A stretch of 64,000 bases of DNA, taken from the NCBI GenBank assembly GCA_020881915.1, contig JAJFPB010000007.1:1178001-1242000 (forward strand). Reading direction: 5' to 3'. Below, piece after piece: positions 1,438 to 43,805 of this stretch; position 1 is the first letter of the stretch, and the number at the start of each line of letters is the position of its first letter. Source of the DNA: Paramyrothecium sp. XJ0827. Its lineage: Eukaryota; Ascomycota; Sordariomycetes; Hypocreales; Stachybotryaceae. A program made the translations under genes and the position numbers. The notes under the pieces were generated by a model. It had not been told where the DNA came from, did no database searches, and saw only the letters and a list, made by a program, of their open reading frames with translations.

Positions 1438-1481
1438 ACGTATCCCATATGCGAGTGGTACATATAAGCGAGTGGTACACT
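1438..1481 (+). repeat. left terminal inverted repeat
   Basis: 44-bp TIR, the exact reverse complement of 3256-3299. It contains two direct copies of GCGAGTGGTACA separated by TATAA, probably paired transposase-binding sites. Confidence 0.95.
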
Positions 1482-1536
1482 CCACCTCAATTTACTAACC
1501 TCTTCTCTTCTAACCCGCTTTTCTCCACGACAAACC

Positions 1537-3177
1537 ATGGAGACTCCTTTAAAAGAGGGTCAATTAACCTTAGCAATCCAAGCTATGAAAAAAGACCCAA
1601 ATCTTAGTCTCCGACGCGCTGCTGCGATCTACAGCGTGAGCCCTATGACGCTCCGCCGTCGTCAAAACGGTACACCATCGCGACGCGACAGCCCGCCCAA
1701 TTCAAAGAAATTGACAGAATCAGAAGAGAAGGCAATTATTGAGTATATTCTTGACCTCGATGCGCGGTTTCATCCGCCTAGGTTCAGCGATGTGGAAGAT
1801 ATGGCGAATCATCTGCTGGCTGAGCGTAGTTCAGAACGCGTCGGAAAGCTCTGGACTTCAAACTTCGTTAAGCGTCAATCAGACCTCCGGACGCGTCGTC
1901 TTCGCAGATATGACTACCAGAGGGCTAAATGCGAAGATCCAGTCGTGATTGACCCGTGGTTTCGCCTTGTGGCGAACACGACCGCGAAATACGGTATCCT
2001 CGATGAGGATACATACAACTTTGATGAGACTGGGTTTATGATGGGACTTATCGTACCAGGGATGGTTGTCACATCCTCAGACGGCCGTCAGAATGCAAAG
2101 AAGAAGCAGCCAGGCAATCGCGAATGGACTACAGTGATCCAAGGCGTTGGCGCATTAGGTTTTTGCATCCCACCGTTCATCATTCTTGCAGGCAAATTCC
2201 ACCTGTCATCATGGTATGAAGACAGCCCTTTGCCACACGACTGGGTGATTGCAACAACAGAAAACGGCTGGACAACGAACGAAACTGGTCTGCAATGGAT
2301 TCAGCATTTCAATAAGCATACTCAGTCGCGTACTTCGGGCGCATATCGTCTTCTTATCCTGGATGGCCATGAAAGTCACCGATCCGTCGAGTTCGAGCTC
2401 TACTGCAAGGATAATAAGATCATTACGCTTTGCATGCCTCCTCATTCATCTCATATACTCCAGCCTCTTGATGTTGGCTGTTTTGGCCCGTTAAAAACAG
2501 CCTACGGTCGCCAAATTGAGATAAAGATGAAGGGCGGGCACACACACATTTCGAAGGAGGACTTCCTGGAGGCATTTCATGGCGCATTCAATGATTCAAT
2601 AACAGAAAAGAATATCCAGGGAGGCTTTAGAGGATCCGGGCTTGTGCCTTATAACCCACAATCGGTCATTTCAAAGCTTCCTGTGAAGCTGAAGACGCCA
2701 ACGCCTCCAAGCACCTCTCACAGTCAAGCCGAACCATGGACATCCAGAACGCCAACAAATACCGCTGAAGCTAATTCACAATATGAATTGCTTAAAACCC
2801 GAATTTCTAATCATCAAGGAAGCTCTCCATCACCAATCCTTGAGTCCCTTCAGCAGTTCTCGAAGGGGGCACAAGGAATTATGCACCACATGGCACTTTT
2901 GAAGGCAGAGAACAGCGACCTTCGAGAGGCAAATAATATACTTAGCCGACGCCGGAGAGCTAAGAAAACACGTCTCCGACGAGGGGGAAGTATGACTTTA
3001 GCTGCTGGTCAAGATCAACAGGCACAGAACAATGTAGATGTTCAGATAAAGCAGGAAACACAGCAAAGTAGTAGTCGCAAGCCATGGGATGAGACGAAGA
3101 AAAGGCGCTGTGGGCGGTGCGGAAACAGCGGTCATAATGCGCGAACTTGTCAGATAGCTGTAATGCAATCTTCTTGA
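1537..3177 (+). CDS. pogo/Fot1-type transposase (DDE superfamily endonuclease)
   Basis: 546-aa single-exon transposase. Order: N-terminal psq-type helix-turn-helix (about residues 5-50, with RRAAAIYSVSPMTLRRR), a CENP-B/Tc5-type DNA-binding region (about 60-130), then the DDE_1 catalytic core. Catalytic acidic motifs are visible: YNFDETGFMMG (first D), LLILDGHESH (second D) and LQPLDVGCFGPLK (third D), so a DDD triad. The C-terminus is basic (LSRRRRAKKTRLRRGG) and ends in a CCHC zinc knuckle (CGRCGNSGHNARTC). The start ATG at 1537 lies 55 bp inside the left TIR. All expected domains are present with no stop or frameshift. It acts in the nucleus on the TIRs of its own family. It is clearly related to the mutated copy at 26.8-28.5 kb. 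Confidence 0.95.
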   Translation: METPLKEGQLTLAIQAMKKDPNLSLRRAAAIYSVSPMTLRRRQNGTPSRRDSPPNSKKLTESEEKAIIEYILDLDARFHPPRFSDVEDMANHLLAERSSERVGKLWTSNFVKRQSDLRTRRLRRYDYQRAKCEDPVVIDPWFRLVANTTAKYGILDEDTYNFDETGFMMGLIVPGMVVTSSDGRQNAKKKQPGNREWTTVIQGVGALGFCIPPFIILAGKFHLSSWYEDSPLPHDWVIATTENGWTTNETGLQWIQHFNKHTQSRTSGAYRLLILDGHESHRSVEFELYCKDNKIITLCMPPHSSHILQPLDVGCFGPLKTAYGRQIEIKMKGGHTHISKEDFLEAFHGAFNDSITEKNIQGGFRGSGLVPYNPQSVISKLPVKLKTPTPPSTSHSQAEPWTSRTPTNTAEANSQYELLKTRISNHQGSSPSPILESLQQFSKGAQGIMHHMALLKAENSDLREANNILSRRRRAKKTRLRRGGSMTLAAGQDQQAQNNVDVQIKQETQQSSSRKPWDETKKRRCGRCGNSGHNARTCQIAVMQSS

Positions 3178-26833: not shown

Positions 26834-28489
26834 ATGTTATTATCAATCAATGAGGCAAATATTAATCTTGCCCTTCAAGCCCTTAAGAAAGACCCTTAAT
26901 TAACTCCCTTTTGCGCTTTAAAGATCTACAAAGTCTCCTGCCGCACCCTAGAACGCCGATGTGATGGCATTCCTACCTGACGTGATATTATGCCTAATTC
27001 GCGGAAACTATCTGATCTAGAGGAATAGACTCTTATTGAGTATATCCTTGACCTAGATTCCTGAGGATTTCCCCTGTGGCTTAGTGATGTGGAAGAAATG
27101 GCCAACTGACTCCTTGCTGACCGCAATGCGTCACCTGTTGGTAAGCGCTGGGCTTCTAACTTCGTTAAGTGATAACTAGAGCTTATGATGCGATTTAATT
27201 GTAAATATGATTATTAGAGAGCTAAATGCGAAGATCCGGCTACTATTTGTAAGTGGTTCTTACTTATAGAGAATATAATTACGAAATATGGTATTACCCT
27301 AGCCGATATCTATAACTTTGATGAGACTGGCTTTTTAATGGGCATGATCGCAAGCGGTATGGTTGTTATGGGCGCAGAAAGGCGTGGAAGACGGAAATTA
27401 GTCTAGCCTGGAAACTGGGAATGGGTTATAGTTATCTAGGCTATTAATGCGGAAGGCTAGGTGATCCAGCCGTTCATTGTGGTTGCAGGCTAATATTACC
27501 TCTCCATCTGGTACTAAGAAAGCAACCTCCTGGGTGATTGGGCTATTGCTACGACCAAAAATGGCTGGACCAATAATGTAATGGGTTTTAAGTGGCTTAA
27601 GTACTTCGATTAATATATAAAGGCCCGATTAAATGGTTGCTATTGCCTTCTGATCCTCGATGGGCACGAAAGCCACCACTCGACCAAGTTTGAGATATAT
27701 TGTAAGAATAATAATATTGTCACGCTCTGTATGCCGCCTTATTTGTCTTATCTACTCCAGCCTCTTGATGTTGGGTGCTTTGGGCCGCTTAAACACGCCT
27801 ACGGTCGGCAAATAGAGTATTTGATCAGATGCTCTATAACTCATATTTCAAAGACTGAGTTCTTTCCAGCCTTTTACGCTGCCTTTTAAGCTGCAATGAT
27901 AAAAAGCAATATCTAGGGAGGTTTCAGAGGAGCTGGGCTTGTTCCTCTAGATCCAGAAAATATGCTTTCGAAGCTTGATGTGTAGCTACGGACTCTAACA
28001 CCTGTTGAAGAGGAGGCGAGCCTCTTGGGCCCTTGGGTCTTAAAGACTCCAAAGACCGTCCTAGAGGCTAGCTCTCAGTCTGAATTCCTTAAAAGATGAG
28101 TTGAGAGATATCAGAGCAGCTCTCCGATATCTATTTTTGAAGCAATTGAGTCTTTTTCTAAGGGAATGAAGGCAATAATGCATTAGATGGCACTATTGAA
28201 GTCTAAGAACCAAATTCTTCGATAGGCGAATAAGACCCTTAGTAGGCGGCGTAGAGCAAAAAGGATATACCTACGCAATGGAGGGAAGATGACTCTAGAT
28301 GAAGGAAGGGAAGTAATTGATTAGAAGGATGTTAATATGCAGCTAGTGGCCGAATCATCTAGAAGTTATAGTCAAAGAGGGTCGGCGCGACTGAAGGAAA
28401 GGCGTTGTGGAATATGCAGCAAGACTGGTTATAATGCAAGAACATGTTAGGTCGTTATAGAGGTGTCTGGAGAGGAGTATAGCGATTAG
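26834..28489 (+). pseudogene. transposase pseudogene, about 22 in-frame stops, no frameshift
   Basis: Reading from the ATG at 26834, the frame stays aligned with the intact transposase over 552 codons, including NINLALQALKKDP, YNFDETGFLMG (first D), LLILDGHESH (second D), LLQPLDVGCFGPLK (third D), GGFRGAGLVP and the zinc knuckle region CGICSKTGYNARTC. I count about 22 premature stops, mainly TAG, and no insertion or deletion breaking the frame. Several stops sit where the intact relative has Gln (for example N-I-Q-G-G, K-Q-P-G-N, Y-Q-R-A-K, R-T-C-Q), that is CAG to TAG. This is the C-to-T pattern of RIP. The product cannot be made. Confidence 0.95.
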
Positions 28490-29088: not shown

Positions 29089-32000
29089 TCACACCAACTG
29101 AAACGGCTCAGCAGGTCTCATGAGCCTAACTGCAGTCAATCTCGCCTGTCCCTCCATCAAGACAGACACATAGCACTCCCCAATAAATATCCATTGGCCC
29201 CTCCCATTGGGTCGAATGATATACGGAGTCTGCCCTCCGAAAAGCACGACCACCTGATCGCCAGGCCGTAGGGACGCGGGTCCAACACCGACGTATCCCG
29301 GCTCCAGTAGGAATGGCCTTCTTCCACACTGCGCGCGAAAGACTGCCTGGTGGTGGACCAGGGACATGTGATGGAACGTGTTTTGCCCCGGAGGCACCAC
29401 GATCGAGTCGAGTTCGGCCCGGCTGGCGTGGTTGTTCTCTAGGGTGCTCTGCCGATTAGTCGTGAGGCCAGCCACGCTCATGTATTTGATTGACAGGCTG
29501 AAGTCCTGCAGGTAGTCCTCGGCCGCTATGGTTGCCCAACTCTCAATCAGCCCGCCGACTTTCTCATCCCCAGCCCACCTCTGCAGGGACAAGGCCGCCT
29601 CGACAAGTGGCATTGATGCCGGACACTCGAATGCCTTCTCGGTCGCGTACTGGATACAGGCAACTTTCCACCCAGTCACTTCGAAAATGCTATTAGGGGC
29701 GATCCCCAGACGGCGAATCACTGGCTTATCTTCGCCACAGGCGAGAAACATTGGGTCATGCATCCTAAGCCACGTATTTGGCTGGGCAACGCCTTCGATG
29801 AGAGAGAACGTGCGCTTTGGCGAGTGGAAGTTGGGCACCCAGGAGGGGAAGAATGGAAACGAGTCTCCTGTGTGGCTGTTGAGCCCGTCTAGTCGCCCAT
29901 GAATACGCGCGTGGTTCTCGACAAGTCGACCGTACGTCTCGACCATGGCGCAAAGCATCTCCACCGCATCTACGTCTTCATCGTCAAAGATAGGTTTCAG
30001 CCTGTCCTCCATTGATTTGGCAAGTGCCTTGTCCCCTTTAATCTGCTGGGTGGCCAAGGCAACGGCTGCCGCCGACGTGAGAGGCAGGTTCATGTTCAAG
30101 TCAAGGCCGTCGACCAATCCTTGTAAGGCAAAGATACGATCCGTCGGCCGTCCGCAATTCCAGCCTCGAAGACCTTGGACAAGATCGAGAAGCCTGAAGT
30201 CCCGATCCTGATAGACCCAGCGATGGCGGAGCAGCTGCATCGGGCGAATGCGCCGTCTGATCACATTCATGTATGTCTCTTCGTCCTCAACCTTGGCTTC
30301 CTCATCGATAATGATTTGGTAGTCGTCGGAAGGGTGGAAAAGCTTCGGGTCAATCATTTCGGTCAAGACGGCAAGGTCGGCGCCGTCCCACTCGAACTGG
30401 TATGTGCCTACTTGTATTACCAGCTCCCGTGCGAGAGTAACTTCTTGCAAAATCCACCGTCTCTTCCAGAAAGGCAGCTGAGCGAGGCGGAGTAGAGTGT
30501 CCACGTCTTCTTTTTCCACTGAAGACGAAAAGTGCTCGCGAACCCGATTCCTGGGTCCTCTTGGGTCACTAATATCAATCCACGGAACCCTGGGCATCAG
30601 CGAGTTGGCTTCGCGGAGCTTGCGGAAGAGTTGCGAAACACCGTCTTCGTTTTCTCCCAGCCAGCCAATCACCCGAGTGGCATTCTGGTACACTTTGCGC
30701 ATCAGAGGAACCTGCTTGGCTTGTTCATCCCTTGACGTTTGGTCGATGCATATCTGATCGGTCCAAATGACTCTGTCTTCATTTGTTAACCGCAGGTAAC
30801 GCAGCGCCATCTCGAGATTAGGTTTCACATCGAACTTCTGAGGAGTCTTGCCCTCGCCGAAAGAGAGACCGATATGACCAGTCAACTTTACCTTCTCAGA
30901 ACGCGGAGGGGTATACAGCGGGTCGGGCTTCTGTTGCCAAACATAGGATAGAGCTTCGTAACTGGTCTTTAGTCGAGTCTCGTCCGTGCCCACATAGGCT
31001 GTCTTGAGCGTGCATCTCAACGGCTTCTTGGCGGTTCCTTTGTGTAGGGTGAGGACGCGTATTTCATCGAGTCCAAGCGCCATGTCTTTGTGCGACATTT
31101 TCTGGACAGGCGGTGGAGGTGGCACAATAACCTTCTGAGTTACTCGCACTTTCTTGTTGCGTGGTGGCGATGGGGTTCGCAGGCGAGGTGGCGTCGGCGG
31201 TGTTGGAGGTCGTGGAGGTTTTGGAACGCGACAGCAACAGTACCAGACTACGAATGCCACAATGATGAGTCCAACACCAGCTCCGCCGCCTATACCTCCT
31301 ATCACGGCCGGGGTCCAGAACGAAGTTGGCGACGATGGCGTTGATGAAGTGAACGAATCACCGTCCGGGACTGATGAAGAGCTTGAAGATACGGTCGAGG
31401 ATGTTGTAGTAACTGATGAGCTAAAGTCACTAGTTGTCGTACTCGATAACCAAGAATCGCTAGTAGTCGTAGTCGTCGTGTAATCGCTCGAAGAGAAGGA
31501 CGTCGAGGAATCATCCTCCGAAGAGAATGAAATGGTGGTCGTCGATAATTCGTCTAAGTAGCTTGTACTAGAATATGAGGTATATGATGTTGAGGCGTCA
31601 TTAGAGTCGAGTGGAGAGCACCGAGCATTGTTTCCGGAATCGTAGTAGCAAAGGTTATTGGGAGGGCAGCATATATTGACTCCTTGGCAGAGAAGATCGC
31701 CCGGTCGCTCGCAGGGCTATATGCAGAGGTCAGTCTCCAGACTCTATGCAAAAACGTCAATGGAACTGGATCTCTGTACATTAGAACCGCCACACGAATT
31801 GTCGGGTGCCCCGATGGCAACGCAACATGGAGCCTCTTCCGTGCCTCCAGCGCACACATAGCCCGCGTTGCAGCACACGCTTCCGCAGCACGGATTGTCG
31901 TAACCACAACAGATCCCGCCGGGGCAGAGCAAGGTCAGGATGGGACATCCTTGCCTTTTAAAAATATTGAACGGCTTGCTGAAATCGGGTTGAACTGGGA

Positions 32001-32124
32001 GGATAGCATTGGCGATGGGGTATGCGAGTGTGTTGTTGTCAGCGTACGAGGGGATCAGCGCTGGGACTGCTTTGGCAGACGGAAGTAGAGCAGGCACCCA
32101 TAAGAGAATGGTCGAGACCCTCAT
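29089..32124 (-). CDS. membrane-anchored HET-domain protein with secreted Cys-rich ectodomain
   Basis: Two exons, complement(join(29089..31716,31780..32124)), 990 aa. Exon 1: signal peptide (MRVSTILLWVPALLPSAKA), a short propeptide ending in a Kex2-type KR before QGCP, then a Cys-rich region. The 63-bp intron (GTACAG...TAG) joins NSCGGSN to PCERPGDLLCQGVNICC, so the ectodomain spans it: 18 Cys including six adjacent pairs, granulin-like in spacing. Next come a Ser/Thr-rich stalk (about 155-250), one membrane helix (about 253-274, GGAGVGLIIVAFVVWYCCC), a cytoplasmic Pro-rich linker (to about 320), and a HET domain with YEALSYVW (about 368), IWTDQICIDQTSRDE and QNATRVIGWLG. No stop or ATG lies between the acceptor and codon 322 (ATG at 31098), which would be the only internal start for a separate HET protein. 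HET domains act in allorecognition and cell death; coupling to an ectodomain suggests a cell-surface sensor (inference). Confidence 0.88.
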
Positions 32125-33222: not shown

Positions 33223-34758
33223 TCATGCAGCTGGCTGAAGATTGACGTTCTTCTTGAAAACATTACCGGGATCATACTTAGCTTTCAGCTCCTGTAGCCT
33301 TGGGAGCTTTTTGCCAAACAGCCTTCCGCTCTTCATCGAGGCCCTATCAGACGGAACGTCCGGATCTGAGGCAGGTCAACATAATGTGCTCGGGAAAGCG
33401 TGTGCATGTTAACTTACTGAGGTAATTCACGTAGGTTCCAGCTCCATCACCTTGAATTTCTTCGGATCTCGGCTTGAACACAGCCGCAGTGCGCTTGATG
33501 GTGTCGCGGACCTCTTGATCGCTCTCAGCCTTGTCATACGACATGAGCATCACAACGTTGTATCTGCCGTCCCGGCCATTGAAGGACGTATTCCCCAACT
33601 TTCCAAACTCAACAATCTTCTGTTGGGGAATCATTTCCAGCGCCAGGGCGCTTGTCCTCATGTCCTCGTTCCCTGGCTTGTTGAGTGCGGCATAGAACTC
33701 CTCGGCAGCGTCGCGGAATTGCTGCGGATCGAGCGGATAGGCAAAACTTGAGCCTCCAAACATGTACCTCCTCATCGGCTTCGCCATGGCGTCCGAAAGC
33801 GTGTTGGCGACGGGATACGGAATCTCGGCGGTATGGTTGAACGCGACGGGCTGCATCTGGAGCAAAGGGGCATAAAATTCCTCGCCTTCTTTGGGTGTAC
33901 CGTTGTAAAATACGCTGGCGCCCAGCATCCTCGCTCCAGTTGCTGGATCGGCAAGGGCCATTGGCATGAACCACTGGTCACCTGTAGCCTTTTCGTGATA
34001 CTCATTTATAAACGCTATGAATTCGTCCAGGAGATCAAATGTCGGCCACACAATAATCCCGCCCCAAGCATTCTTCTGGGGAAAGGCACGGGACGTGAAG
34101 GCAGTCACGATACCAAAACTCGTGCCTGCTCCGCGGAGGGCCCAAAAGAGATCCTCGTTCTCTGACTCAGATGCAGTAACGATATCCCCGTTGGCGAGCA
34201 CGACTTCGCACGATACCAGCACATCAACGGACATGCCGTAGCGGCCTGACAGCATGCCGTACCCACCGGCAAGGACGAGGCCGCCGACTCCAGTATCGGA
34301 GACAGTCCCCCCGACCGTGGCCAATCCGTGCTTCCAGAGCGCATTATCCACATCTGCCCAAGTGCACCCGCCACCGAAAGTGACAGTCTGCGCTTTGGGG
34401 TCAACGGCTACTGAACGCATGAGAGATAGATCCAGAACTGCATCGTCTGGGCTCTTGGCAGACGACTCTCCTGAAGGGTTGTGGCCTCCTCCTCGGACAG
34501 CAAAGGCGACTGAGTTTGACGTGATGAACTGCAGGGCACTCGAAACCTCAGCAGCCGTCGTGGGCCGGATCACTGCGGCCTAAAGAAGCAATCTTCAGCA
34601 TCGAAGGACTCACCGTCAGAATGTTATTGCGCACTCACTGCGGGTTTGACGGCGGTTGCACTCCACCGATGCAGGCTTGTGTCGAAGCCTTCGTCACCAG
34701 GAAGCAGCACATCACCATCTCTGATGCTCTGGCGGAGCTCTTCGAAGTTTGGAGCCAT
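33223..34758 (-). CDS. FAD-linked oxidoreductase, berberine-bridge-enzyme type
   Basis: 474-aa member of the FAD_binding_4/BBE family. Model: complement(join(33223..33365,33418..34579,34639..34758)); both introns are in frame, the last restoring [19 protein letters not shown] and the BBE C-terminus [15 protein letters not shown]. The N-terminal FAD domain has [10 protein letters not shown], whose His is the usual site of covalent 8-alpha FAD attachment, and [19 protein letters not shown], where the second covalent Cys of bicovalent members is missing. No signal peptide, so probably intracellular, unlike many secreted members. Such enzymes oxidise sugars, alkaloids or polyketides; substrate not predictable. 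Confidence 0.92.
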
Positions 34759-39819: not shown

Positions 39820-41916
39820 TTAGTCTAGCCCTTCAATAACAACAACTTCAAATAATTCTAACCCTGGTAGTTGAACTCTGCCGTTCGTTACGTTTAAAGT
39901 AACATCACCTCGCAAACTGCGCGCTGTGACTCCCTCCACCACCCCTGAGATCTGGATGCTCCCAGATGGAATCGGCAAATGCTGCCCAAAATTCTGACGT
40001 CGTACGCCTGACAGGTTGACGAAGTGGACAACAGTACTCTTTTTGTTAGACATTACTGTCACTTCCACCTGCGGTGCAATGTCAAAGTGCAATCTTTCAT
40101 GCCGTTTTGCGTCGATTTCCCCTAGTATAAGATCGAAGAACTCGCGGAATACGCTGAGACCAACCTCACGGTATCCACGACCAACTGGGAACGGAGTCAG
40201 TACACCGATGCCATTGCCGTAGGAACCGATACCGACACCTCGCTCGTCTACCTGGATATTGCCGTAGATGTACTCCGGAGGTGCAAAAGGAGCATAGTCA
40301 AGCTTTTTGTATCTCCCTCGAGAGTTCCCTTTCCACTGATATACACTGTAGGTACCAAGGAGAGGAATGATTGGGCCCTCGTAGTAATGCTCCTCGGTCC
40401 TGTTCTGCTCTGGCGCGAAGTATAATGACCAGAGTTCCTCACTTTCATTCAGAAACTTGAGTCTCCGAGCAGCTGGAAGAGAACTTAGTTGCAAAGCGTG
40501 ATTGGAATCAACTCCAACCTCCCCGGTTGCGATCAGGGCGCCGCCCAATGCAACCCACTCGTCCAAAGTCTCGGCATCATCTGAACGCAGTACGCCAAGA
40601 TCAGGCAATATCACTACTTTGTATCGCTCAAGACCACCGCTTGATCCTATCTCTGCAATGTTCTGCTGCCCGATCGTATCGAACGGAACATGGAGCTCTT
40701 GGAGTGATTTATATAGTCCTTTGTACTCAGATAGCGACAACTCATATTCCGTTGCATTCCTCTGGGACGCTTGTGGTAGGACAAGCGCGGTCTTGGCCGT
40801 CGGCTTCAGATCAACGTATACGTCTTTCCACCGACTGTGAAATGCCATTACCTCAGACGCCGTGTGCATGCCAGGCCATGGGATCTTGCCAGGGACGCCG
40901 ATAATGTACGTTGAAGGATTTGCGCCTCGGGCTATGGCTTGAAGGTGATATTGTGCGAATTGATGAGCATCCTCCGCAGTGATCCGATAGGCATGATCAA
41001 GGAAGGAAGCTGAATTGACCAAGACCGGAACCTCTGGTCGGTGGGCTTTGAATCTACTCACAGTCTCCATGGTTGCATGATGCCATATCTCACGGTCGAT
41101 GGCATTGTTCGACTCGTGAAACATGATGTCGGCAGCAGAACCAAGAATGAGCCCTGCTTCCGGCGACCGGTCGGCAATGAAGGCTCGTACGCGGCCCGTC
41201 CACTCGTTGATAATCCCATCACTGAATATCTTCCACTCTGCATAGTCGTCGCTCCATGGTCCGTCCGGCAGTTCCTTGCCGCCGGCATGCTGTCGCCAAC
41301 GTTTGTTGCAGTTCTCGCAATGGCACACACCGTGGTATACACGGAAGTAGTCGCGTTCGTTGTAACCAGCCCAATTGACGAAGAAGCCATCAATGGGATA
41401 ATGCCTCATGACCTCGTCAAGAATATCGAACACACGTTCCTGGTACCACTTTCCTGAAGGACAAACGGAGACAAGTTCTGCGGTGTGATTCTGCCATGTC
41501 CCATTCGGGGAGATGTATAGCCAATCTGGGTGTGCTTCGGCAATGGGGTGGTGTACTTTCGAGAAGTCCATGCGGGCGAGAATTCTAATGCCTCGGGCGC
41601 GTGCCGCGTTGACAGTGTCTTGAATGAGGTCGCCACTCTCACGTAAGTGCAACAGTGGATTGACAGTCTGAAACTCAAGTTCCGACGGGTAATTGGCAAG
41701 AATACCACCAACGCTTGTGAGCCATGCTGTTGAGCCGTGGCTTTTAATAATATCAGCAACAGCTTCAACATCCATGTCCACGTCAATCTCTCGAAGATTG
41801 GTTTGATACATGCCGAAAGGCTCCTGCCACCACGGACGTGTAGCGTTAGAGCCGTGACATTGCGTTGGCAAAAACAAGAATGTCGAGACAGAAATCAGGA
41901 TCTTTCTGAGGAGCAT
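39820..41916 (-). CDS. secreted glycoside hydrolase-like protein (GHL6 / GH42-trimerisation type)
   Basis: 698-aa single-exon secreted protein. Signal peptide MLLRKILISVSTFLFLPTQC (cleavage near CHG). The N-terminal half is a TIM-barrel of the hypothetical-glycosyl-hydrolase-6 type: WWQEPFGMYQTNLREIDVDM, ILARMDFSKVHH, HPDWLYISPNGTW, and YPIDGFFVNWAGYNERDYF, whose acidic residues lie at barrel-strand ends. A CHCENCNKRW cluster (C-x-C-x2-C) follows, then GLILGSAADIMFHESN. The middle (about 380-520) resembles the beta-galactosidase trimerisation (GH42M) domain with VVILPDLGVLRSDDAETLDEW. The C-terminus is a beta domain. Several N-glycosylation sites are present. The start is the ATG at 41916; a longer frame begins only with TTG. 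Related proteins include fucosidase- and galactosidase-like enzymes; substrate unknown. Confidence 0.82.
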   Translation of the reverse strand: MLLRKILISVSTFLFLPTQCHGSNATRPWWQEPFGMYQTNLREIDVDMDVEAVADIIKSHGSTAWLTSVGGILANYPSELEFQTVNPLLHLRESGDLIQDTVNAARARGIRILARMDFSKVHHPIAEAHPDWLYISPNGTWQNHTAELVSVCPSGKWYQERVFDILDEVMRHYPIDGFFVNWAGYNERDYFRVYHGVCHCENCNKRWRQHAGGKELPDGPWSDDYAEWKIFSDGIINEWTGRVRAFIADRSPEAGLILGSAADIMFHESNNAIDREIWHHATMETVSRFKAHRPEVPVLVNSASFLDHAYRITAEDAHQFAQYHLQAIARGANPSTYIIGVPGKIPWPGMHTASEVMAFHSRWKDVYVDLKPTAKTALVLPQASQRNATEYELSLSEYKGLYKSLQELHVPFDTIGQQNIAEIGSSGGLERYKVVILPDLGVLRSDDAETLDEWVALGGALIATGEVGVDSNHALQLSSLPAARRLKFLNESEELWSLYFAPEQNRTEEHYYEGPIIPLLGTYSVYQWKGNSRGRYKKLDYAPFAPPEYIYGNIQVDERGVGIGSYGNGIGVLTPFPVGRGYREVGLSVFREFFDLILGEIDAKRHERLHFDIAPQVEVTVMSNKKSTVVHFVNLSGVRRQNFGQHLPIPSGSIQISGVVEGVTARSLRGDVTLNVTNGRVQLPGLELFEVVVIEGLD

Positions 41917-43019
41917 TGTACGTATTGACGTGTTCGATCTGATTTTGCAAAGCAAAGCTCAAAGAATGTCGAACATCAATCGACTATCGCAATCAAATCT
42001 GTTGTGTCTCAAAATCACGTCTTTTATCAGTACATACAGGCGGGGAATGAGCAATATCAGTCTGATTGTGGGGTTCTCAAGTGTTGGCAAATCCATAAAT
42101 CACCGTTACATCCACCCTGCGGGAAGTGAAGATCATACCCTCCATATGTGCGGCCAAGACCTGGCACTTGACTATGTGAGGGGTTTCGTGATGGGTCACG
42201 GGTTGCTTTGGAGCTTTGCTCGTTTACCCTCGAGTTAAATGATACTCCACTTTCAAACATTAGGCTGATTGTTTTGCATGACCTGCGATGGACTCGGCTG
42301 CAAGTTCGTGCTGTAGATCTTTTGGAAGACAGCACGCCGACCCAGAAAAGCTGGGGAATTTACCTAGCGGTAGCATCAGGCTCGTTACGAGGCAATCCCC
42401 GTAATGAACTCCAAACATCGGTCTTGCCAACGAACAGGTTGTGTCAAGCAGGGGACGAAAGTCTGCGCCTAGCTGCATTTTTCTCATGTTTCTTGGCAAG
42501 GATGGCTATTGCATAACATCTGGCACTGATGAAAACAACCCCTTTCTATGATTCCATGGCTCATTTCTTCACAGTATCAGTTCTAAGACTAGGCTCCCAA
42601 AGTTACGACAGTTGAATACTTCTGAAGTCCTTCAAGACAAGTTCTCAAGAGTTCAGAAGCGAGCATGGTACATGAGTTACAATTGCGGACGAAACTGACG
42701 GGAACAGATGAACCAAGCCCTTGGCATTAGCGTGTACGGTGAGTCAAAGCGTTCATACCGCAATACTACAAGGATCAATCTAGGATATTACCATATTTAA
42801 GCTGGTCTGCCAGCTTTGCCTGGCAGACCGTGCCATGACAGGGATAGACACCATGAGCTCTTACATATGATATCATGCTTGGCTGTGGCATCGATGTAAG
42901 CACTAAGGAATCCCAAAGCTGAGAATTTTTAACTAGCCCACCTGATGGTTCATTGTTGCAGAAACTCCCACACGCCCGCAATCTTTAGCACCCAGCCCTG
43001 CAAATACCACCAGAAAGCA
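41917..43019. other. divergent promoter region with a perfect hairpin
   Basis: About 1.1 kb between the divergent hydrolase and sulfotransferase-like genes. At 42804-42829 there is a perfect 10-bp inverted repeat, GGTCTGCCAG and CTGGCAGACC around a 6-nt loop. No ORF called. Confidence 0.5.
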
Positions 43020-43805
43020 ATGGGTCAACGATACTCTGCGCCTCAGCAGGGGAAGAAGATCCAAGTCATTGGTGCTGGACTTCCTCGGACCGGCACAGCT
43101 TCGTTCAGTCGGGCCCTGGAAATCCTTCTTGATGGCCCTGTTTACCACGGGGGCACGCAGGTGACGTTGGGTCCTGAAGCCGAGGTCAAGGCCTGGATCA
43201 AGCTCCTTTCCCAATGGCCTCCCACCAGCGACCAAAAACAACAAGAGAACCTGGCTCTCCTCAAGGGCCGTCTGGATGGATTCGTTGCCATCACCGACTC
43301 GCCGGGGTGCAGTCTCATTCCCGAGCTTTGTGCTTTGTACCCAGACGCAAAGATCATCTGCACTGTGCGTGACCCCGAAGCATGGGAGAAGAGCATGCAG
43401 AGCACCGGGAATGCGGCCACGCAATGGTTCCTACGCTTCGTTTTATTCCCGTTGCCTTCACTGCGATTTTTTGTGGACTACATCAACGTGCTGCGAGCAC
43501 AGTGGTCTACTTTGTACAACGAGACCGAACCGGTAACGACAAAAAGTTGGCATCGGCACATGGCATGGCTCGCGGAGAACGTTCCGGCAGATCGCCTCAT
43601 ATTCTACAACGTCAAGGATGGCTGGGGACCATTGTGCGAGGCCCTTGCACTGCCCGTTCCTCAAGACATACCGTTTCCTCGGGTTAATGACAGTCAGCAG
43701 ATCGAGGCTTTCGCTAAAAGACACGTCATGCGAGGCCTCAAACAATGGGCCAAGATCATTGGGGCTTTGGTGGCTGCAGTACTTCTGTTTCTTTATATAA
43801 GATGA
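43020..43805 (+). CDS. tail-anchored sulfotransferase-like P-loop protein
   Basis: 261-aa, single-exon member of the fungal Sulfotransfer_4-like family (often mislabelled NAD-dependent epimerase). The PAPS-type P-loop is VIGAGLPRTGTASFSRALEI (about residues 15-34), followed by a conserved YHGG segment. The 3'-phosphate-type region is ICTVRDPEAWEKSM. The final 17 residues (IIGALVAAVLLFLYIR) form a hydrophobic C-terminal anchor, so the enzyme domain should face the cytosol, probably at the ER or another membrane. Start at ATG 43020; the frame extends upstream only from GTG. Whether it transfers sulfate is unproven for this family. Confidence 0.85.
   Translation: MGQRYSAPQQGKKIQVIGAGLPRTGTASFSRALEILLDGPVYHGGTQVTLGPEAEVKAWIKLLSQWPPTSDQKQQENLALLKGRLDGFVAITDSPGCSLIPELCALYPDAKIICTVRDPEAWEKSMQSTGNAATQWFLRFVLFPLPSLRFFVDYINVLRAQWSTLYNETEPVTTKSWHRHMAWLAENVPADRLIFYNVKDGWGPLCEALALPVPQDIPFPRVNDSQQIEAFAKRHVMRGLKQWAKIIGALVAAVLLFLYIR

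Follow-up and report, generated by a model that had tools for sequence, protein, structure and literature searches.

The gene at 29089..32124 (-) of the window, by which we mean the whole 64,000-nucleotide stretch of Paramyrothecium sp. XJ0827 DNA analyzed here, probably encodes a type I single-pass, receptor-like fungal surface protein that would translate a signal from outside the cell into a TIR-like HET response. Read from ATG to stop, its spliced product of 990 aa carries a signal peptide-like N-terminus, a Cys-rich part, a Ser/Thr stalk, one helix, a Pro-rich linker, and a HET domain. This is the order given in the original prediction, which was confirmed from the sequence. A shared reading frame, the same order of parts in a protein from another fungal class, and a valine pattern at the exon border of relatives confirm, as far as sequence comparison reaches, that the two-part receptor-like gene is real and beyond chance.

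Gene structure and protein parts

The gene model and the parts of its product, from N- to C-terminus, were assigned as follows.

32124..31780 (-): exon 1, 345 nt, phase 0
31779..31717 (-): intron, 63 nt, phase 0, GTACAG...CTGAC...TAG
31716..29089 (-): exon 2, carrying the second half of the ectodomain, the stalk, the helix, and HET
32065..32124 (-): residues 1-20, signal-peptide-like N-terminus, from sequence and a hydropathy peak of 1.75
31954..32064 (-): residues 21-57, propeptide ending in a dibasic KR (Kex2-type) before Gln58
31780..31953 (-): residues 58-115, first half of the ectodomain (ecto1, exon 1), 12 Cys
31612..31716 (-): residues 116-150, second half of the ectodomain (ecto2, exon 2), 6 Cys
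31315..31611 (-): residues 151-249, Ser/Thr-rich stalk
31240..31314 (-): residues 250-274, predicted membrane helix, glycine-rich, hydropathy peak 2.22
31066..31239 (-): residues 275-332, juxtamembrane CCCR and Pro-rich basic linker
30442..30960 (-): residues 368-540, HET domain (PF06985), Pfam 94.3 bits, E 1.1e-26
29137..29349 (-): about residues 905-975, C-terminal stretch common to other HET proteins

Exon 1 opens in the start context ACAATGA. Within the intron, the CTGAC before the acceptor fits the fungal branch-point consensus, and retention of the intron brings two in-frame stops that end the frame. An in-frame exon join crossed by no stop had been predicted, and it held: the join yields the 990-aa product, and the homologue P0003 runs gapless through the splice point. 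Exon 2 is a single frame of 875 open codons. Because six ectodomain Cys, the stalk, the helix, and HET all lie inside it, the fusion of ecto2, stalk, helix, and HET is independent of the intron.

The absence of an ATG before codon 322 was likewise borne out, with no Met found between residues 1 and 322. Codon 322 (ATG at 31098), the first Met after residue 1, stands just before the HET region, as would suit a working product that is a cytosolic HET protein started from this internal ATG, the upstream part being rarely made. We consider this highly improbable, given that the frame is open from 31716 and that the upstream part is conserved as protein across fungal classes (28 of 34 residues of ecto2). 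Conservation at the protein level needs translation, which argues that the upstream part is translated.

The 25 most hydrophobic 19-residue windows (Kyte-Doolittle) fall only in the helix (2.22, residues 253-272) and the N-terminus (1.75, residues 6-24). By hydropathy, a single membrane helix is thus predicted between the ectodomain and HET, with one peak besides the leader. Outside the helix, Ser or Thr occupies 62 of the 100 positions over residues 150-249, while residues 275-320 hold 10 Lys/Arg, 17 Pro, and no Asp/Glu. By the positive-inside rule, the basic flank of a helix marks the cytosolic side. The basic residues that follow our helix therefore place the linker and HET side in the cytosol.

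The HET score of 94.3 bits, against a Pfam cut-off of 22.5, makes the protein a member of PF06985, and a whole-genome HET scan recovered the domain at the same place. Searched against Pfam at E<=1, the whole protein returned only HET and a sub-threshold Alpha_GJ; NACHT, NB-ARC, and repeats, which would mark a HET-bearing NOD-like receptor, were not found at this threshold. The C-terminal stretch was matched by separate BLASTP pieces in P0003, P0004, P0005, P0007, P0009, P0011, P0013, P0016, P0018, and P0023, and long alignments extended to it in P0006, P0008, and P0014.

Other frames were seen in the window. Directly upstream of the receptor gene and on the same strand lies an FAD_binding_4 oxidoreductase exon at 33347-34579 (-). 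A 712-codon frame at 39820-41958 (-) combines a hydrophobic leader with GHL6 glycosidase and GH42-type trimerisation domains, and at 42933-43805 (+) lies a sulfotransferase (Sulfotransfer_4) frame whose C-terminal part includes a hydrophobic stretch. An open 569-codon frame at 1468-3177 (+) encodes a DDE_1/Tc5-type transposase, and on visual inspection a 91-codon frame at 27614-27889 (+) resembles a fragment of a transposase of this type.

Fused homologues and the HET lineage

The full-length protein was searched against 5.8 billion proteins, and scoring of the best 7984 candidates (those sharing most words) gave 30 matches. The first three, P0001-P0003, stand apart from the rest. The other 27 align only from the linker or HET part onward, and that only 3 of 30 matches share more than the HET part counts against the receptor reading.

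P0003, from Paraphoma chrysanthemicola (Dothideomycetes), has every part in the same order, including a hydrophobic leader, and an ectodomain that runs unbroken past our splice point. P0002, from Microdochium trichocladiopsis (Sordariomycetes), contains RRQGC, the first half of the ectodomain, the stalk, a helix bearing WYFCCR, and HET, and the model of this gene appears to continue into the intron. P0001, from Paramyrothecium foliicola (Sordariomycetes), has a hydrophobic leader, KRQ, the helix, and HET without the Cys-rich part. Some lineages may be able to do without the ectodomain; alternatively, the P0001 gene model may be wrong. The C-terminus of this protein carries a methyltransferase domain (Pfam), probably through a wrong gene merger. 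Two of the three are named 'heterokaryon incompatibility protein-domain-containing protein' in the database and one 'Methyltransferase psoC'; none of the names mentions a receptor. The order of ectodomain, helix, and HET, which the original prediction had proposed to seek elsewhere, thus recurs, and with both parts fused in P0003 and P0002, ectodomain and HET are not always separate genes. A further search with the ectodomain, in proteins 0.55-1.75 times 990 aa in length, found only P0003 among 63 candidates. It missed P0002, which has half an ectodomain, so the survey of fused proteins is incomplete.

These homologues bear on whether the gene model merged two unrelated genes. The splice is itself a predicted one, and P0001 probably provides an example of such a merger. 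As the fusion recurs in another fungal class (P0003), we assign a negligible probability to a merger here. For exon 2, a two-gene or gene-model artefact was rejected outright, since ecto2, stalk, helix, and HET share one unspliced frame.

Conservation is unevenly spread along the protein. Compared with P0003, identity is 39/58 in ecto1 and 28/34 (82%; residues 116-149) in ecto2, against 59/203 (29%) in HET; the propeptide shares 17/37 residues and the linker 5/53. Compared with P0002, 39/58 residues of ecto1 and 101/225 of HET are identical. Over residues 250-277 the helix matches P0002 at 15/28 positions, P0001 at 14/28, and P0003 at 9/28. Judged by these identities, HET is far less constrained than the ectodomain. 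A head that is the most constant part of the protein suggests that its ligand does not vary, that it binds a partner protein, or that it plays a structural role. An allorecognition or arms-race surface would be expected to vary; the conserved head instead favours an unchanging ligand or partner and argues against an allorecognition surface that evolves rapidly.

The 29% HET identity of P0003 would lead one to expect that the same ectodomain had been fused more than once, each time to a different HET gene. We rejected this scenario using a tree of 79 HET domains, composed of ours, the 30 matches, and 48 other HET frames from the same genome; the tree excluded identical domains, domains shorter than about 130 residues, and frames whose HET E exceeded 1e-10. 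Our HET domain and those of P0001-P0003 grouped in a single clade (support 95/90; 96% of 200 bootstrap trees), a result to be read with the bootstrap unsettled (correlation 0.979) and with P0001-P0003 having been found with our own sequence as query. With all four HET domains in one clade, a single origin of the fusion is the simplest reading and the one we prefer.

The genome itself contains at least 150 HET matches. The frame before HET was examined in 62 loci, some of them the same place repeated, which include the 40 best-scoring of the at least 150 matches and hence a non-random sample. Among these 62, an ectodomain and helix occurred in the HET frame only in our gene, upstream exons being covered for locus L027 only. 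At that locus, C11:466459-466890 (-) (L005, L013, L027), a HET protein has a hydrophobic region of ~60 residues before HET with a peak of 2.76, and no signal peptide or ectodomain was seen; it is possibly another membrane-bound HET design. Borderline hydropathy peaks near the start of the HET frame were observed at L058 (2.01) and L037 (1.92).

An 18-Cys head with alternative tails

To delineate the ectodomain family, an N-terminal profile was built from three sequences and run against proteins of about 180-580 aa, where scoring of the best 7992 candidates gave 29 matches. Many of these are short frames, most of them carrying no protein name, that run from exon 1 into the apparent intron. In 23 of the 29, a valine lies at most a few residues beyond the final Cys of exon 1, as Asn-Val (21), Ser-Val (1), or Asp-Val (1); this count drops P0040 as a false pattern match, and P0058 and P0059 are without the stretch concerned. 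Such a valine fits a GT donor read in phase 0. Three of the 29 are already spliced onto Asn-Pro-Cys. Together, the two patterns suggest, judged on protein sequences, that the intron position is conserved.

The Kex2 site (KR) before QGCP, taken in the original prediction as a sign of ectodomain maturation, is conserved as well. A [KR]RQG(N)C site precedes the ectodomain in 23/29 relatives (one of them reading RRQGNC), and three of the six relatives that lack it read PRQGC. All six complete ectodomains, those of our protein, P0003, P0031, P0032, P0034, and P0049, keep 18 of 18 Cys. Our protein bears both marks of the family, the [KR]RQGC-type site and 18 Cys at matching positions.

The ectodomain alone matched 0 Pfam families at E<=10. 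The suggestion of a granulin-like or chitin-binding ectodomain gained no support from this sequence-profile test, although absence of a profile match proves nothing on fold. Granulin and chitin-binding families were also absent from the 5 Pfam families matched by the 30 members of A5 (E<=1). No Pfam domain was listed for any of the 29 relatives, a set whose length limit excludes proteins of 990-aa size. A PDB sequence search gave 3 matches, to the helix only (E 0.4-0.94). A PDB fold search with a model holding a sister ectodomain gave nothing significant; the helical tail filled the lists, such that the ectodomain was barely tested. A search of the same genome for a second copy of the ectodomain returned only this gene.

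The same ectodomain-helix module occurs with another cytosolic tail, of about 230 aa, in P0031, P0032, P0034, and P0040. P0032 comes from Naviculisporaceae sp., P0034 from Rhypophila decipiens (Sordariomycetes), and P0040 from Hyaloscypha finlandica (Leotiomycetes), and these three are annotated as hypothetical proteins, P0031 being without a protein name. Like ours, the sister proteins have a leader, a propeptide, [KR]RQGC (RPRQGC in P0034), a stalk, and a glycine-rich helix. Their ectodomains hold 18 Cys in P0031, P0032, and P0034, as does ours, while the P0040 model lacks part. Unlike ours, they end in the helical tail in place of HET. This tail had no Pfam match and was all-helical in the P0032 model. 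P0049, from Amylocarpus encephaloides (Leotiomycetes), joins its complete ectodomain to a tail with several hydrophobic segments.

In the Paramyrothecium genome, a 324-codon frame (L067, C8:6043214-6043672 (+)) resembles the tail of P0031, P0032, and P0034 at 27% identity (E 0.006). Here the tail-like domain stands as a protein of its own, whose C-terminal part includes a hydrophobic stretch and which also has short repeats of the GQG(V/A)P type. The helical output domain may thus also occur as a separate protein.

From its sequence distribution, the ectodomain-helix unit looks like an input module joined to alternative outputs, and its presence with another tail in P0031, P0032, P0034, and P0040 is as expected of such a module. 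Whether these proteins form a new fungal single-pass receptor family, with one disulfide-rich head and either a TIR-like HET or a helical domain as output, we regard as about evenly balanced.

For our protein, the receptor reading suggests the following mechanism. Once a Kex2-type protease had removed the propeptide, the mature protein would begin at Gln58. Its disulfide-rich head, held out on the stalk, would bind a conserved ligand or partner, which might be a wall fragment, a microbial molecule, or a neighbouring hypha. Binding would cluster the helices and draw the HET domains in the cytosol close to one another. These TIR-like domains would in turn trigger an output, for which regulated cell death or NAD-based signalling is the likeliest form. 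Clustering could act as the switch of a single-pass protein that has an extracellular head and a glycine-rich helix, and we infer that such a protein might sense another microbe and fire cell death from the membrane.

The ectodomain might instead serve as an address, holding HET at the plasma membrane, septum, or fusion site while HET responds inside as a guard. Strong ectodomain conservation fits a structural or docking role, and the HET gene at C11:466459, with its N-terminal hydrophobic region and no visible ectodomain, hints that sensor-free membrane placement may occur. Yet a mere membrane anchor would need neither 18 invariant Cys nor a propeptide whose processing site is conserved, and the module is reused with an unrelated tail; we judge the address role unlikely.

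Signalling mucins and Notch work by cleavage, and shedding of the ectodomain could free a HET fragment from the membrane to act in the cytosol. The long stalk, with 62 of 100 residues Ser or Thr, and the Pro-rich linker after the helix would suit such a route. It is distinctly improbable in light of the conserved dibasic site, which precedes the head rather than lying between head and membrane, and of the poorly conserved linker (5/53 identical to P0003); no cleavage motif was identified near the helix. We retain the reading as a receptor switched by clustering. If it holds, the receptor would connect the hyphal exterior with the HET cell-death machinery, and the sister proteins with the other tail would be a ready control for what the head senses.

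Comparison with known systems

Fungal wall sensors (WSC, Mid2) and signalling mucins share with our protein a leader, a Ser/Thr-rich extracellular stalk, and a glycine-rich single helix. They differ in having a short tail where ours has a large HET cytosolic part. Neither WSC (PF01822) nor Mid2 (PF04478) was matched in Pfam by the whole protein (E<=1) or the ectodomain (E<=10).

Our protein has the same PF06985 domain as HET-6, TOL, HET-E/D/R, and BH1, and its C-terminal stretch recurs in other HET proteins. In the accessible text of four papers, described HET proteins are stand-alone, intracellular NLR, or HET-lectin-fold proteins, without the signal peptide, ectodomain, and single helix of ours (PMC10197012, PMC12881547, PMC4986451, PMC10890737). 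A 2023 review emphasises that clearly assigned architectures are missing for HET proteins (PMC10197012). No description of a cell-surface HET receptor was found among the literature titles and abstract starts listed, with subscription journals mostly outside this scope. HET domains are reported to induce cell death and to be remote TIR relatives, and TIR domains to act through homo- and heterodimerisation (PMC4986451, PMC10197012, PMC10890737). Cell death or incompatibility is reported for other HET members (PMC10890737, PMC12881547).

Toll-like receptors (LRR-TM-TIR) resemble our protein in combining an ectodomain, one helix, and a cytosolic domain of the TIR-like group, the HET-TIR relation being taken from PMC4986451. 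Fold searches with the HET model had no TIR in their lists, and neither support nor exclude this relation. In place of LRRs, our protein has a small Cys-rich head, with no LRR detected in the whole protein (Pfam E<=1) or the ectodomain (E<=10), and by Pfam its cytosolic domain is HET, not TIR. One paper reports LRR surface receptors as absent from fungi, which may have novel classes, and finds Toll-like receptors only in metazoa and a small number of land plants (PMC2939053). Judged from its predicted parts, our protein is surface receptor-like in anatomy, and by membership it is a HET-domain protein, not a Toll-like receptor. If the receptor reading is true, the family would be a fungal counterpart of Toll-like receptors and receptor kinases.
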